DNA from: Acidobacteriota bacterium | GTDB taxonomy: Bacteria > Acidobacteriota > UBA890 > WLXD01 | NCBI GenBank assembly: GCA_029263335.1 | Contig: JAJCXS010000128.1 | Span: 1 to 56,335 of the forward strand | Length of the DNA stretch: 56,335 nucleotides | Reading direction: 5' to 3' | Shown: positions 2,270-10,739 of the stretch, in pieces | Layout: every line of letters begins with the position of its first letter | Numbering within the stretch: the stretch's first letter is position 1 | Program-made: the position numbers and the translations under genes | The notes under the pieces: model-generated | The model's database searches: none | Told to the model about the DNA's origin: nothing | The model's input: only the letters and a program-made list of their open reading frames with translations

Positions 2270-3118
2270 TTGACCGACACCATCCGCTCCGGCGAACACG
2301 TCCTCTTCCTTCTCGAGGACGGCAAGACCTTCCTCGTACGTATGGAGCCCGGCCAGCGCCATTCGACCCACCGGGGCTCGGTGGATCACGACGACATCAT
2401 CGGCCGCGAATGGGGTGACGTGGTCCTGAGCATGTCGGGCGGGGCCCTGTCGCTACTTCGCCCGCGCGGCATCGACCGCATGATGAAGGTCCATCGCCGG
2501 ACCAACATCATGTATCCCAAGGATGTCGCCTATCTGATCGCGGAGATGGACCTACAGAGTGGCGATCGGGTGATCGAGATCGGCTGCGGTTCCGGATCGA
2601 TGACGCAGGCGCTCGCGCGCGCGGTATCGCCCGGTGGGCAGGTGATTTCCTACGATCGGCGACCCGAGTTCCTCGAGCTTGCGCGGGATAACTGTGCCGT
2701 TGCTGGTATTACCGATATCGATTTCCGCGAGCGACAGGCAGGCGACGCTCTGGAACCGGGGGTCGATGCGGTGTTCACGGATGTCCCCGAACCATGGGCC
2801 GAGATCGCCGTAATCCGCGATGCCCTGCACGGGAGCGGACGCTTTGCCGCGGGCATTCCTACATTCAACCAGGCGGAAAAGCTCGCCACGGCTCTGGACC
2901 ACTACGGGTTCGGCCTGATCGAAACCGTAGAGATCCTGCGACGATCGATCCTGGCGCGCGCCGGGAAGACACGACCGGCGCACCGAATGATCGGCCATAC
3001 GCAGCTACTGACGACGGCCGTCAAGATCAACCGCGCGGAAGCGGACAGCGAGGCGGCCGAGCCGGGCGCAGAGCCAGAAGGGGCCGACAACGAAGGCGCC
3101 GAGAGCAGTCATGACTGA
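2270..3118 (+). CDS. trmI: tRNA (adenine-58-N1)-methyltransferase TrmI
   Basis: SAM-dependent methyltransferase that makes m1A58 in the tRNA T-loop. An N-terminal beta domain (GEHVLFLLEDGKTFLVRM) precedes the Rossmann fold, with SAM loop EIGCGSGSMT and catalytic-region motif TDVPEPW, which matches the DxPEPW signature of TrmI. The frame is open from 2030, but the first 80 residues look non-coding. I place the start at the TTG at 2270, 7 nt after a GGAGT ribosome binding site (2258-2262), giving 282 aa. A Glu/Ala-rich tail closes the protein. It overlaps nth by 8 nt, so the two are probably translationally coupled. Confidence 0.9.
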   Translation: MTDTIRSGEHVLFLLEDGKTFLVRMEPGQRHSTHRGSVDHDDIIGREWGDVVLSMSGGALSLLRPRGIDRMMKVHRRTNIMYPKDVAYLIAEMDLQSGDRVIEIGCGSGSMTQALARAVSPGGQVISYDRRPEFLELARDNCAVAGITDIDFRERQAGDALEPGVDAVFTDVPEPWAEIAVIRDALHGSGRFAAGIPTFNQAEKLATALDHYGFGLIETVEILRRSILARAGKTRPAHRMIGHTQLLTTAVKINRAEADSEAAEPGAEPEGADNEGAESSHD

Positions 3119-3749
3119 CGCGGAGCGAGCGGGGGAGATCCTCGCCTGCCTGCAACAGTCGCATCCCGACGCCCGCGTCGAGTTGGATTTTGACACCCCC
3201 CTGCAACTTCTGGTGGCCACCATACTCTCGGCCCAGTCGACGGATCGGCGGGTAAACCTGGTCACGCCGGCGCTGTTCGAACGCTACGCGGACGCGGACG
3301 CGCTCGCCGCAGCCGATAGCGAAGAGCTCGAGGAACTCATCCGGAGCACCGGCTTTTTCCGCCAGAAGGCCAAGAACCTCAAGGCCTGCTGCCAGATCCT
3401 GATGCAGGAGCACGGTGGGGACGTGCCGTCGGACATGCCGGCATTGACCGCACTTCCCGGCGTGGGAAGGAAGACCGCCAACGTCGTGCGGGCCGTCGCC
3501 TACGGTCTTCCCGGAATTACCGTGGACACCCACTGCAGGCGTCTCAGCAACCGACTCGAGCTCAGTGGCCAGAACGATCCAGTGAAGATCGAGCGCGACC
3601 TCGAGCAGCTGTACCCGGAGTCAGCGTGGGCGGATGTCTCCCGTCTCTTCGTCTGGCACGGCCGCTATGTGTGCAAAGCGCGTACACCCGACTGCGGCGC
3701 CTGCGGTCTGCAGGATCTCTGCCCGTGGTTTAGCGCCCAGTCCGTCTAG
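3111..3749 (+). CDS. nth: Endonuclease III
   Basis: A 212-aa bifunctional DNA glycosylase/AP lyase for oxidised pyrimidines in base excision repair. The helix-hairpin-helix LPGVGRKTANVV carries the catalytic Lys, and VDTHCRRLSNRL carries the catalytic Asp. The C-terminal [4Fe-4S] cluster loop is complete (Cys-x6-Cys-x2-Cys-x5-Cys in CKARTPDCGACGLQDLC). Length and motif spacing are normal. Its start lies within the end of trmI. Confidence 0.96.
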   Translation: MTDAERAGEILACLQQSHPDARVELDFDTPLQLLVATILSAQSTDRRVNLVTPALFERYADADALAAADSEELEELIRSTGFFRQKAKNLKACCQILMQEHGGDVPSDMPALTALPGVGRKTANVVRAVAYGLPGITVDTHCRRLSNRLELSGQNDPVKIERDLEQLYPESAWADVSRLFVWHGRYVCKARTPDCGACGLQDLCPWFSAQSV

Positions 3750-3857
3750 CTGCTCGCCAGCATCGTCCTGAGTGCGACCAGGCTCAGTTCCTTGGGGTTC
3801 CCACGGACGAAGTGCGCCCGCAGGCGATCGTGCGCCGGCACCGAAATTATCTCTTGT

Positions 3858-3879
3858 ATACCGTAATTATGTTCGGTAT
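3858..3879. promoter_or_regulatory. Dyad ATACCG-N10-CGGTAT upstream of the lexA-like gene
   Basis: A perfect 6-bp inverted repeat with a 10-bp AT-rich spacer. It sits about 48 bp before the start of the LexA-like regulator. It overlaps a possible promoter, TTGTAT (3855-3860) and TATCCT (3877-3882) with a 16-bp spacer. It is unlike the heat-shock operators CIRCE and HAIR. A repressor operator is inferred from position and symmetry. Confidence 0.5.
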
Positions 3880-3926: not shown

Positions 3927-4562
3927 ATGACCAACCTCACGAATCGACAGCAATCGATCTACGAGTTCATCGTTGAGCAGGTCCACGCGCGTGGTCTGCC
4001 CCCGACGTTGAAAGAGATCGCCTCCGCTTTCGGCCTCAGCTCGGCGGCCGGGATTTCGGATCACTTGAAGGCCATCGAACGGAAGGGCTTCATCCGGCGC
4101 CGCCCGGGTGTGTCGCGCGGTATCGAACTGCGATCGTCCACCGGAGAAGTTCCCGTCAGAGCTTGCACCGTGCCGGTGATTGGCCTCGCTCCGGGGGGCG
4201 GGGGAGTTCAGCGATCGGGAGCGCCCCGCGTCGCCCTCGATGTACGTTGGGCCGGCGCGGAGTCGGTAGCGTTTCAGGCCGCCACCGATCAGCTGTCGCA
4301 CCTCGGCATCCTGCCGGGCGACCTGCTGGTTGCCAGCGCTGGATCTCCGGCCGCGGCCGGTGACCTGCTCATCGGCAGGCAGGGTGAACGCATCGCGATC
4401 CTGCAGGTCAGTCGTGGTCGGCACAGTGCCGCCCCCATAGCTGGCCGGATCGACCCGGCCGCTGACGTTCGCGTCTACGGCCGTGTCGTCACCGTGATCC
4501 GGACGCCGCGGCCGATATTCAAGCCGGTCCCCAATCGCCAACAGCGCCAACGCAGGAGCTGA
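3927..4562 (+). CDS. LexA-like transcriptional regulator lacking the self-cleavage residues
   Basis: A 211-aa protein collinear with LexA. Residues 1-70 form a clear LexA winged helix ([49 protein letters not shown]), and residues 82-190 follow the S24-like domain. Aligned without gaps to E. coli LexA, catalytic Ser119 is Gln122, catalytic Lys156 is Leu159, and the Ala84-Gly85 cleavage bond is Gly90-Gly91. No lysine occurs between residues 54 and 198, so no alternative general base is available. Recognition-helix residues also differ from E. coli (N41 to A, E44 to S, E45 to D). It ends 2 nt before clpB and follows two dyads. I infer a non-cleavable repressor of the chaperone/protease block rather than the SOS regulator. 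Confidence 0.85.
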
Positions 4563-4564
4563 AC

Positions 4565-7198
4565 ATGCGAATCGACAAGTTCACCGTGAAGGCCCAGGAA
4601 GCCATCAAGGTCGCCGAGCAGATGGCCCAGGAGAGAGGCCACCAGCAACTGCAGGGCGCGCATCTACTGATGGCGTTGTTGAACCAGGCCGAGGGCGTCG
4701 TGCGCAGTTTGCTCGACCGTCTCGGCATCGATATCGCCGCGCTCACTTCGGCCACAGAGACTGCTCTGGGGCGCTTGCCGACGGTGCAGGGTGGCAACGG
4801 CGAGGTTCATCTCGACGCCGAGGCCAGCGGTGCGCTGCAGGCTGCCCAGCAATCGGCCGATCAGCTACAGGACCGGTATGTCTCCACCGAGCACGTCCTC
4901 ATGGGACTGCTCGCGACGAAAGGGCCCGGCGCGGCGCTGCTGGGTGCCAGCGGCGTCACGCACGACGAACTACTGAAGGTGTTGCGTGATATTCGGGGCA
5001 GCATGCGCGTAACGGACCCTACTCCGGAGGAGAAGTACGACGCCATCGCGCAGTACGGGACGGACCTCACGGATCGGGCGCGAATGGGGAAGCTCGATCC
5101 TGTCATCGGGCGTGACGAAGAAATACGCCGACTCACGCAGGTGCTGTCACGGCGAACCAAGAACAACCCCGTCCTGATTGGCGAACCCGGCGTTGGCAAG
5201 ACGGCCATCGCTGAAGGTCTGGCGCAGCGCATCGTCGATGGCGATGTCCCCGAGGGGCTGCGTGGCCGGCGCGTTGTCAGCCTCGATCTGGCGGCCATGC
5301 TCGCTGGCGCCAAGTACCGCGGCGAGTTTGAAGATCGGCTCAAAGCGTTCCTGCGGGAGGTCGTCGAGTCGGGCAACGTTGTCCTCTTCATTGATGAACT
5401 CCACACGGTGGTCGGCGCGGGCAGTTCCGAGGGCGCCGTCGATGCCTCCAACATGCTCAAACCGGCTCTTGCCCGTGGTGAACTGCACGCAATCGGTGCG
5501 ACGACGCTGAATGAATTCCGCAAGTACATCGAGCGCGATCCGGCACTGGAGCGTCGCTTCCAGCCCGTGCTGGTTGCAGAGCCCGATACCGAGGACACGA
5601 TTTCCATCCTGCGTGGGCTCAAGGAGCGCTACGAAGTGCATCATGGCGTGCACATCCGCGATGGCGCACTCATCGCCGCGGCCACCCTGTCCGACCGTTA
5701 CATTGCCGACCGATTTCTGCCCGACAAGGCCATTGATCTGGTCGACGAGGCGGCGGCCCGTCTACGCGTAGAGATCGATAGCATGCCCGCCGCTCTCGAC
5801 GAACTGGAGCGCCGGCGGCGGCAACTCGAGATCGAACGCGAGGCCCTGCGCAAGGAGCGTGACGACGCATCACGCGAGCGCTTGTCGATCCTCGAGGACG
5901 AGCTTCGGACCCTCATCGTCGAGCATGAGGCGACCCGTCGACGCTGGAACGAAGAGGTGCGGCAGGTGCGCTCGATTCAGGAATGCAACCGCGCCATCGA
6001 AGATGCTCGCGCGGGCGCCGAGCGCGCCGAGCGTGACGGCGATTTGGCCAAGGCGGCCGAGCTGCGCTACGGCGTTGCCCGCGACAGGGAGGCGGAGCTG
6101 CGCAGCGCACGCGCGCGACTCGCAGAGATACGAGGTGACGGCGAACCAATGCTGCGCGAGGAGGTTGTTGCTGAGGACATCGCCGCCGTCGTGGCCCGTT
6201 GGACCGGTATTCCCGTGAGCCGGCTGTTGGAGGGCGAAGTGGAAAAGCTCCTGCACATGGAGGCTCGCCTGCACGAGCGGGTCGTGGGGCAGGACGTCGC
6301 TGTCGAGTCGATCTCCGACGCCATCCGCCGCGCACGGGCGGGGCTGCAGGAGGCAGGACGCCCGTACGGATCCTTCCTGTTTCTTGGGCCCACCGGAGTA
6401 GGAAAGACCGAGCTGGCCAAAGCACTCGCCGAGTTCCTCTTCGACAGCGACGAGGCCCTCATCCGTCTCGACATGACCGAGTACATGGAGCGCCATGCGG
6501 TAGCTCGCATGATCGGCGCCCCTCCGGGCTATGTCGGACACGAGGAAGGCGGTTTCTTGACCGAAGCAGTTCGTCGGCGGCCCTACTCAGTGATCCTTCT
6601 GGATGAGATCGAGAAGGCTCACCCCGATGTGTTCAACATCCTGCTGCAAATCCTCGACGACGGGCGACTGACCGACGGCAAGGGTCGCACGGTGGCCTTC
6701 GCCAACACGGTGATCATCATGACCTCCAACCTCGGAAGTTCGCACCTGGCGGCGCCCGAGGTGGAGGATCGAGAGCAGGCAAGAGATGCCGTACTCAACG
6801 AGGTCCGTCAGGCCTTCCGTCCGGAGTTCGTCAACCGCATCGACGACATGGTTGTCTTCGATCCACTGACCAAGAAACAGCTGCGCGCCATCGTATCCAT
6901 CCAGCTGCGGTTGGTGGGTCGACGCATGGCTGACCGCGGCCTTGACCTGGAGGTTTCCGACGCGGCCGAGAGCATCCTCGCGGAGCGTGGTTTCGACCCG
7001 GTGTACGGTGCCCGACCCCTGAAGCGAGCGATCCGCCAGCTGCTGGAGAATCCACTGGCCCAGGCCATCCTCGCCGGCGAGTTCACCGTCGGTGGTACCG
7101 TCCACGTCGATGCCGATCCGTCGGCGACCATGTTGGTATTCCGGGGCAGCCCGCCGGCAAGCAGCACGGACTCCGGAATGATGAGGGAAGGAACGTAA
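4565..7198 (+). CDS. clpB: ATP-dependent disaggregase ClpB
   Basis: An 877-aa hexameric AAA+ chaperone that, with DnaK/DnaJ, extracts polypeptides from aggregates. In order: N-domain (about 1-150), AAA-1 with Walker A GEPGVGKT at about 206-213 and Walker B VLFIDELH, a coiled-coil M-domain (about 410-530), AAA-2 with GPTGVGKT at about 608-615 and [16 protein letters not shown], and a C-terminal oligomerisation domain. The M-domain separates it from ClpA/ClpC. It starts 2 nt after the LexA-like gene and ends 3 nt before the J-protein gene, so co-transcription is very likely. Confidence 0.97.
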
Positions 7199-8255: not shown

Positions 8256-10739
8256 ATGACTGATGATCGAAGCCGAGACCTCGAGGCTGAAATCCGTGCC
8301 GAGCTAGCCCGTGCTGACGAGGCACCGTTCGATCTGCCGGCCACACTGCCCGTGGTGCCGTTGCGTGGCTCTGTCCTGTTCCCGTCTGTCGTTCTACCGA
8401 TCCTCGTTGCCCGAGAGTCGACACGTCAGCTGGTGGAAGAGGCTCTCGACGCCGACCGTGTGATCGCCGTGGCGGCGCTACGCGACGCCACCGTGGAGGA
8501 ACCGAAGCCCGAGCACCTGCACGGTGTCGGTTGCCTTGCGCGCATCGTCAAGGTGCTGCGCCTGCCAAACGGCAACCTGAACGTGATCGCCCAGGGCCTG
8601 GTCCGGATCACGATCGGCGACACCGTCGCCGAAGAGCCCTACATTCGCGCCCAATGCGAGCCGCTCGACGTGCCCGAAACCGAGCCGACGGTGGAGATCG
8701 AAGCGCAGATCGCCAGCACGCATCGCCTGCTGCAGCGACTGATGGAGATTTCTTCGAGTCTGCCTGTGGAACTCGATTCGATGGCCACCGCCGCAAGAGG
8801 TCCCGGTGAGCTTGCGGATATCGTCGCGGCCAACGTCGGATTCAGCCAGGACGAGCGACAGCGGCTGTTGGAGACGCTACATCCCGCCGAACGCCTCACC
8901 GTCCTGCTCGAGGTATTGAGCCACCGGCTCCAGGTGATCGAGCTGTCGCGCAAGATTGAATCCGACGTCCAAGGGGAAATCGATCGAGGACAGCGCGAGG
9001 CATACCTGAGGGAACGACTGCGGGCGATCAGACGGGAACTCGGCGAGGAAGAAGACGACGCCGAGATCGAAGAGCTGGAAAAACGCATCACCAACCTCGA
9101 CATGCCGGAGCCGGTCGAGAAGGTGGCCCGGCAAGAGCTCGATCGCCTTGCCCGCATGTCTCCGGCGGCAGCCGAGTACCACGTGTTGCGATCATACATT
9201 GACTGGCTGCTCGACATGCCGTGGGGGACGTTCACCGACGACAACCTCGACCTCCGTGCGGCAGCAGCTCAACTCGACGCCGACCACTACGACCTGAAAA
9301 AGGTCAAGAAGCGGGTCATCGAGTACCTCGCCGTGCGCAAACTCAAACCGGAGAAACGAGGACCGATCCTGTGTTTCATCGGGCCTCCAGGGGTGGGGAA
9401 GACCTCCCTGGGAAGATCCATCGCAGGGGCGCTGGGACGGGAGTTCGTGCGGCTCTCCCTGGGAGGCGTGCACGACGAGGCCGAGGTGCGAGGCCATCGC
9501 CGGACCTACGTCGGCGCCATGCCTGGCAGGATCATCCAGGGAATCAAGCGGGCAGGCTCGATGAATCCCGTCTTCATGCTCGACGAGATCGACAAGGTAG
9601 GCCAAGACTTTCGCGGCGATCCCTCGGCAGCGCTGCTCGAGGTGCTCGATCCGGAGCAAAACGACACCTTCTCGGATCACTATCTCGAGGTAGATTTCGA
9701 CTTGTCGCGTGTGCTCTTCATCGCCACCGCCAACGTCCCCGAGGACATTCCGGCCGTATTGCGCGATCGCATGGAGATCCTCGAGATCCCCGGCTACACC
9801 GCCGAGGAGAAGGTCGAGATCGCCCAGCGATACTTGATGCCGCGGCAACTCGACGAGCATGGATTGACCTCGTCCTTGCTGGACCTCGACCCCACGGCCA
9901 TCGCTGCCATCGTGCGCGACTACACCGAAGAAGCTGGCGTCCGGGGACTGGAACGGGAGATTGCGACCATCTGTCGTGCCCAGGCGCACAAGGTGGCGGA
10001 ATCCATGGATGATGACCACGAGAGGCCCGCCGGCATCGTCGTGCGACCCGCCGATCTTCATGGCTTCCTTGGACCGGTCAAGTTCTTCACCGAAGTGGCC
10101 GAACGAACCGCTGTGCCTGGTGTCGCGGTCGGCCTGGCCTGGACACCCTCCGGCGGTGACATTCTCTTCATCGAAGCGACCCGCATGCGCGGCAAGGGCG
10201 AGCTCCAGCTCACCGGACAGCTCGGCGACGTGATGAAGGAGTCCGCGGTCGCCGCCCTCTCGTATCTGCGAGCGCGAGCGGAGGAACTCGGCATCGACGA
10301 CAGCGCCTTCAAACGTCACGATGTCCATATCCACGTGCCCGCGGGGGCTACGCCAAAGGACGGGCCCTCCGCCGGCATCACCATCCTGGTGGCCCTGGCG
10401 TCGATCTTTACCGGCCGCTCGGTCGCCTCGGACCTCGGCATGACGGGCGAGCTGACGCTGCGCGGGCTGGTGCTGCCAGTGGGCGGAATCAAGAACAAAG
10501 TCCTGGCCGCCCGGCGCGCCGGGTTACGGCGAATCGTCCTGCCGACGAAGAACGAGAAAGATCTCGAAGAGCTGCCCGCGCAGGTGAGGGAAGGGCTGGA
10601 ATTCCACTTCGTCGATCGGGTCGATGAGGTGCTGGATCTGGCGCTTACCGGCGCGCCCCCTGCCCGAAGGAAGCAAGACGCGGCGAGCGCACGACGCAAG
10701 CCGGCGCGTCCCAAACGCCCCGAAGCTCCGCCGTCGTAA
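8256..10739 (+). CDS. lon: ATP-dependent protease Lon
   Basis: An 827-aa LonA-type protease that degrades misfolded and regulatory proteins. The N-terminal LON domain (about 28-220) starts at LPVVPLRGSVLFP. The AAA+ module has Walker A GPPGVGKTS (about 378) and Walker B VFMLDEIDKV. The S16 protease domain has catalytic Ser in PKDGPSAGITI and Lys in GGIKNKVLAARRAG. The C-terminus is a basic Ala/Lys/Arg-rich tail. A 112-bp gap separates it from the J-protein gene; it could be read through from clpB or have its own promoter. It is convergent with rarA, 29 bp away. Confidence 0.97.
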   Translation: MTDDRSRDLEAEIRAELARADEAPFDLPATLPVVPLRGSVLFPSVVLPILVARESTRQLVEEALDADRVIAVAALRDATVEEPKPEHLHGVGCLARIVKVLRLPNGNLNVIAQGLVRITIGDTVAEEPYIRAQCEPLDVPETEPTVEIEAQIASTHRLLQRLMEISSSLPVELDSMATAARGPGELADIVAANVGFSQDERQRLLETLHPAERLTVLLEVLSHRLQVIELSRKIESDVQGEIDRGQREAYLRERLRAIRRELGEEEDDAEIEELEKRITNLDMPEPVEKVARQELDRLARMSPAAAEYHVLRSYIDWLLDMPWGTFTDDNLDLRAAAAQLDADHYDLKKVKKRVIEYLAVRKLKPEKRGPILCFIGPPGVGKTSLGRSIAGALGREFVRLSLGGVHDEAEVRGHRRTYVGAMPGRIIQGIKRAGSMNPVFMLDEIDKVGQDFRGDPSAALLEVLDPEQNDTFSDHYLEVDFDLSRVLFIATANVPEDIPAVLRDRMEILEIPGYTAEEKVEIAQRYLMPRQLDEHGLTSSLLDLDPTAIAAIVRDYTEEAGVRGLEREIATICRAQAHKVAESMDDDHERPAGIVVRPADLHGFLGPVKFFTEVAERTAVPGVAVGLAWTPSGGDILFIEATRMRGKGELQLTGQLGDVMKESAVAALSYLRARAEELGIDDSAFKRHDVHIHVPAGATPKDGPSAGITILVALASIFTGRSVASDLGMTGELTLRGLVLPVGGIKNKVLAARRAGLRRIVLPTKNEKDLEELPAQVREGLEFHFVDRVDEVLDLALTGAPPARRKQDAASARRKPARPKRPEAPPS

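Follow-up and report, generated by a model that had tools for sequence, protein, structure and literature searches.

The window, a stretch of 56,335 nucleotides, is contig 128 of the genome of an Acidobacteriota bacterium (G000; 4.07 Mb in 310 contigs, 92.7% complete). It carries the gene of a LexA-fold regulator, which we term lexA-A, followed by genes of a disaggregase, a co-chaperone and a protease. The features of this locus are, in window coordinates:

3111..3749, + strand: nth, endonuclease III; conserved upstream neighbour, with the operator region between nth and lexA-A
3839..3858, no strand assigned: second, weaker operator-like copy CACCGAAATTATCTCTTGTA; abuts the main palindrome upstream and is identical to it at 14/20 positions
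3854..3859, + strand: -35-like hexamer TTGTAT; CTTG invariant in 6/6 promoters
3859..3878, no strand assigned: main operator-like palindrome TACCGTAATTATGTTCGGTA, 20 bp; lies between the -35- and -10-like hexamers and ends 49 bp before the lexA-A start codon
3877..3882, + strand: -10-like hexamer TATCCT after a 17-nt spacer; TAnnnT at the same place in 6/6 promoters
3927..4562, + strand: lexA-A, LexA-fold regulator without cleavage residues, 211 aa, ATG start (evidence: open reading frame, PF01726, TIGR00498, alignment, AlphaFold, Foldseek)
4565..7198, + strand: clpB, ATP-dependent disaggregase (TIGR03346 above cut-off), 2 nt after the lexA-A stop codon
7202..8143, + strand: cbpA/dnaJ-type co-chaperone gene, 3 nt after clpB
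8256..10739, + strand: lon, endopeptidase La (TIGR00763 above cut-off), 112 nt after cbpA

A first-pass annotation had described a LexA-fold regulator fronting clpB and had proposed to look in relatives for the same co-location with clpB and lon. We found five orthologues, two from the same genus (G001, G002), one from the same family, f1 (G003), and two from a second family of the same order (G006, G007). Together with the protein of the window genome they form the six-member set used below, a small sample in which the genomes are partly incomplete. All six genes are flanked by nth on one side and by clpB-cbpA(-lon) on the other, with clpB immediately downstream; the order nth, lexA-A, clpB, cbpA is kept in 6/6 genomes, and lon comes next wherever the contig extends that far. 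The gap of 2 nt between lexA-A and clpB in the window falls within the 2-7 nt seen in five of the genomes and widens to ~65 nt in G003. Being 112 nt past cbpA, lon may have its own promoter. A homologue with an intact catalytic dyad in the lexA-A slot of this gene context was not found. Outside the order, none of 21 clpB loci had a LexA-like open reading frame within 1.5 kb (a positive control was recovered), and several carried a cbpA or hsp20-type gene upstream instead. Three further genomes of the order matched neither lexA-A nor clpB; as these are only 72-86% complete, the joint absence says little.

LexA-A is a full-length LexA-like protein, as first described. Residues 1-65 match the LexA DNA-binding domain PF01726 (81.3 bits against a cut-off of 23.7; E 4.5e-23), a cut-off likewise passed by all five orthologues, and residues 1-193 match TIGR00498 (lexA) at 93.7 bits, under the equivalog cut-off of 110.95. 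A Peptidase_S24 domain was not detected in the Pfam search. An AlphaFold model built with the six-sequence alignment reached a pLDDT of 84.5, and Foldseek against the PDB returned LexA structures as the top 12 matches with both domains covered (E ~1e-11, probability 1.0). Whole-chain TM-scores against PDB LexAs were low (0.3-0.4), which a different orientation of the two domains probably explains. Judging from the DNA-binding domain and the two-domain fold, LexA-A is a member of the LexA family by descent and fold. It is not a canonical SOS LexA: the equivalog score, the dyad, the scissile bond and operators at SOS genes are all lacking.

Alignment to E. coli LexA places Q122 at Ser119, L159 at Lys156 and G90-G91 at the scissile Ala84-Gly85 bond, in agreement with the replacements that had been read from the window. 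The register at the serine is anchored by a Gly-Ile-Leu-x-Gly-Asp motif just past this position, and no realignment brings back a Ser/Lys pair. On the basis of these missing residues, RecA-stimulated self-cleavage is predicted to be impossible, and the earlier statement that the protein is unable to cleave itself by the LexA mechanism stands. The accompanying argument from a lysine-free stretch fared less well. LexA-A has lysines at positions 29, 48, 53 and 199 only, so that residues 54-198 are indeed free of lysine, but in four of the five orthologues the same region contains one or two. With a lysine content of 2.4% in neighbouring proteins, a run of 145 residues without lysine has a chance of ~3%. 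We gave this stretch no weight, since it is only mildly unusual by composition and is not conserved.

The loss of the cleavage residues extends to the relatives. In a 70-sequence IQ-TREE phylogeny, the six LexA-A proteins form one clade (support 100/100) that divides by host family. Among 297 sampled genomes of the phylum, the lowest-scoring LexA-A reached 298 bits and anything else 131 bits or less; when genome contigs were searched with the single protein, the only matches were distant LexAs of the cleavable kind from Spirochaetota and Nitrospirota. The dyad lysine is lost in 6/6 proteins (L, L, L, L, V, V) and so is the Ala-Gly bond (GG, GS, GG, AL, AR, AR); the serine position holds Q, E, A, S, N or G, so that one orthologue still has a serine. 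The S24 domain is undetectable in five of the six and under the cut-off in the sixth. Further LexA-like proteins with a damaged dyad (Ser to Asp or Thr, Lys to Arg or a gap) occur in other families of the phylum (L013 in G010 and L118 in G083, both f4; L108 in G205, f43), and autoproteolysis may have been lost several times.

Such losses could also mean that LexA-A is a relic, a LexA copy in decay whose only tie to clpB is co-transcription, and the patternless filling of the serine position together with the fast divergence of the C-terminal domain (22-69% pairwise identity) would fit decay. Against this reading, the open reading frame is intact in two families, the DNA-binding domain is strongly conserved (57-84%), and the palindrome is kept at the same promoter position. 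Between LexA-A and its nearest orthologue, dN is 0.19 and dS 1.32, and the resulting dN/dS of ~0.15 indicates purifying selection where measured. We regard a relic as highly improbable. Most of the C-terminal positions that never vary hold hydrophobic residues, Gly or Pro, which in our reading suits a fold retained without a conserved active site.

We then turn to the promoter. An equivalent 20-bp palindrome is present at all six lexA-A promoters, inside the 17-nt promoter-like spacer, and the abutting second copy also occurs in G001, G002 and G003, all of family f1. The window palindrome has the form CCGT-N8-TCGG. The palindrome of G007, TACTGTAAATTATTACAGTA, has the form CTGT-N8-ACAG, as in the E. 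coli SOS box. A generic promoter and terminator scan scored nothing, with the lexA-A promoter under its threshold, and the promoter call therefore rests on conservation. We searched the six genomes for the operator with up to 3 mismatches, using the reversed pattern as a control. The lexA-A promoter was the single best match genome-wide in G000, G001, G003 and G006; in G002 and G007 it was near-best or shared its score with one other site. Other LexA-A targets were considered and dropped, as the counts of weaker matches were not consistently above the reversed control in the six genomes; among the other sites inspected, none recurred between genomes. The palindrome is an SOS-box variant, and in G007 of the same type, but it serves a repressor without the dyad; neither of the two findings named beforehand as refuting, a restored Ser/Lys pair or a dyad-bearing homologue in this operon with SOS-type operators, was obtained.

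Lying in the spacer of the promoter-like hexamers, the palindrome is placed in a way that fits repression by occlusion. A LexA-A dimer would bind there and block RNA polymerase, and in family f1 the second, abutting site would help binding. From the sequence data, we infer with good confidence that LexA-A represses the operon it heads by binding to this palindrome.

Whether a canonical lexA exists elsewhere in the genome had been raised as a check, and the answer is yes. G000 encodes three LexA copies: LexA-A in the window, LexA-B on contig 156 and LexA-C on contig 170, the latter two passing the TIGR00498 equivalog cut-off (153.9 and 159.7 bits). In the 70-sequence tree, LexA-B (L002 1495-2094, G000:C156) falls with the phylum's main LexA. 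In most of family f1 its lysine is replaced by Gly, its serine position holds Ala, Trp or still Ser, and Ala-Gly is mostly kept; in the sister family it is intact in G006 and G008 and has Lys to Arg in G004, G005 and G007. This range from intact over Arg to Gly makes stages of dyad loss visible within one order, and the stepwise loss can also be read from L041, L045, L046, L044, L047, L049, L051 and L052. As two of the three LexA copies in family f1 are without the dyad, a gene annotated as lexA does not necessarily encode an SOS repressor.

LexA-C is catalytically intact, with Ser, Lys, Ala-Gly and a strong S24 domain (110 bits), and belongs to a clade distant from LexA-A in the same tree. 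Its operator-like palindrome, CAGAC-N4-GTCTG (CAGACATTTGTCTG), differs from that of LexA-A. It lies before lexA-C and dnaE2 (identified through NCBIfam) in G000 and G001, and before a glyoxalase-like gene in G000, G001 and G002; the loci are L148, L145 and L154 (G000), L146, L149 and L152 (G001) and L144 (G002). The gene after lexA-C shows a weak RecA-like similarity and is a probable imuA. By their shared sites, lexA-C, dnaE2 and the glyoxalase-like gene likely form a small SOS regulon with its own operator. An SOS mutagenesis regulon is laid out in this way, and LexA-C thus appears to fill the SOS role. Two kinds of locus were observed besides these: a fourth LexA type in G006 (L043, G006:C427), which has an intact dyad and, upstream, a palindrome of the GAAC-N4-GTTC type, ACTGAACAAATGTTCAGT, and, in two genomes of family f19, a lexA with intact dyad that has a gene resembling Y-family polymerases and a dnaE-like gene directly after it (L169 959-5949 in G028 and L170 4428-9421 in G040).

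These copies bear on the question of whether LexA-A might still be wired to SOS, being removed in trans through heterodimers with the cleavable LexA-C or by a housekeeping protease, so that clpB and lon would be damage-induced. The kinship of its operator with the SOS box, up to the E. coli type in G007, would suit such wiring; moreover, in the case of the LexA-like HdiR, self-cleavage must be followed by Clp action for derepression to be complete (PMC8565304), and IrvR is a reported exception to RecA control (PMC7101444). The scissile Ala-Gly is, however, absent in 6/6 LexA-As, and LexA-C sits in a distant clade and has another operator. We consider a remaining link to SOS quite unlikely.

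Dyad loss, conservation, synteny, the operator-like site and the separate SOS-type LexA together make LexA-A most likely a dedicated, RecA-independent autorepressor of a chaperone and protease operon. The original proposal, a repurposed repressor whose inducer is not RecA-driven cleavage but possibly heat or unfolded-protein load, is thereby supported in part: the dyad is gone, the gene is conserved upstream of clpB, a canonical LexA exists separately, and the conserved operator makes a repressor likely. For a proteotoxic inducer, it is the gene content (disaggregase, DnaJ-type co-chaperone, Lon) that points to it, and we put its chances at about even.

LexA-A would thus be a LexA paralogue that lost autoproteolysis and became the local autorepressor of lexA-A-clpB-cbpA-lon. 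Release would occur without RecA-stimulated self-cleavage, most likely through a reversible loss of DNA binding under protein-folding stress. LexA-A might itself be heat-labile, or it might need chaperones that unfolded proteins titrate away, as with HrcA-GroE and HspR-DnaK. As a whole, this explanation, a cleavage-dead LexA-A acting locally on the clpB-cbpA-lon operon and released by folding stress, appears to us reasonably probable.

Several points count against it. The generic scan did not score the promoter, the set of orthologues is small and drawn from partly incomplete genomes, and lon may be transcribed separately. The genome also has HrcA with a perfect CIRCE element and an HspR-like gene beside dnaK (104 bits against a cut-off of 105), and a third heat-shock repressor is therefore not obviously needed. 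The dnaK, DnaJ-type and HspR-like genes share a contig with hrcA (L179, G000:C175), and no HAIR-like site was found near this cluster by the consensus used. An RpoH match above the cut-off was not obtained in G000. At the locus itself, CIRCE control was rejected because no CIRCE lies near the promoter; HAIR was not found near the promoter either, and LexA-A has no Pfam match at E<=1 to an HrcA, MerR-type or CtsR domain. The idea that clpB was ancestrally controlled by HspR/HAIR across the phylum was also set aside as too weak, as HAIR-like sites (3 mismatches) directly upstream were clear only in two genomes of one family. We tentatively put forward, at somewhat below even odds, that LexA-A represents a novel class of proteostasis repressors: without RecA-controlled autoproteolysis but with SOS-box-like operator geometry retained, this LexA paralogue would serve as the dedicated folding-stress switch of clpB-cbpA-lon, alongside HrcA and the HspR-like protein.

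If true, a repressor of the DNA-damage response would have been put to new use in protein quality control while the same genome keeps an intact SOS-type LexA, which would allow a side-by-side study of how signal and operator changed. How a LexA dimer comes off without being cut would also become a question open to testing.

Compared with known systems, LexA-A shares with canonical E. coli LexA the PF01726 domain, the overall fold and a 20-bp palindromic operator with SOS-box spacing; unlike it, LexA-A has no Ser-Lys dyad, no Ala-Gly bond and no SOS genes at its sites. The proposed role resembles that of HrcA, HspR and CtsR, which are local or small-regulon autorepressors in chaperone operons with an operator on the promoter, and the cbpA-hspR operon of H. 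pylori is a close analogue in layout (PMC6032397). These are, in contrast, unrelated protein families with unrelated operators, and the likeness lies in the layout and the putative operator. Chaperone feedback on the repressor is a known mode of HrcA-GroE and HspR-DnaK (PMC6032397), and C. jejuni HrcA is reported as an intrinsic thermosensor (PMC8533110); by analogy, either could apply to LexA-A. In the open-access literature searched, we found neither a clpB/lon-dedicated LexA that coexists with a functional SOS LexA nor work on LexA and clpB in Acidobacteria; for LexA, clpB and heat shock combined, there were only reviews and unrelated studies, judging from titles and abstracts.

A further resemblance, one in kind, is to LexA of Synechocystis sp. 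PCC 6803 (Sll1626), in which Ala-Gly has become Gly-Gly and the dyad is lost, which is not cleaved, and which regulates salt-responsive genes including hspA (PMC13416735, PMC7567884). Like LexA-A, it is a LexA fold without the dyad and Ala-Gly that acts on non-SOS targets. Its phosphorylation changes under salt stress (PMC7567884, PMC13416735), and by this precedent LexA-A could be a constitutive or slowly tuned autorepressor that sets a steady operon level, adjusted by phosphorylation or another modification to the salt or nutrient state and not to folding stress. Synechocystis LexA is, however, described as a broad regulator, whereas LexA-A has one high-scoring conserved target, the proteostasis operon, and no conserved Ser/Thr is prominent among its invariant C-terminal residues; we hold slow tuning of this type to be unlikely. 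Unlike the Synechocystis protein, LexA-A is one of three paralogues, heads clpB-cbpA-lon as its only evident target, and coexists with an intact SOS-type LexA. A cleavage-dead LexA is already known from Synechocystis; one apparently dedicated to clpB/lon beside an intact SOS-type LexA had no counterpart in the literature searched.
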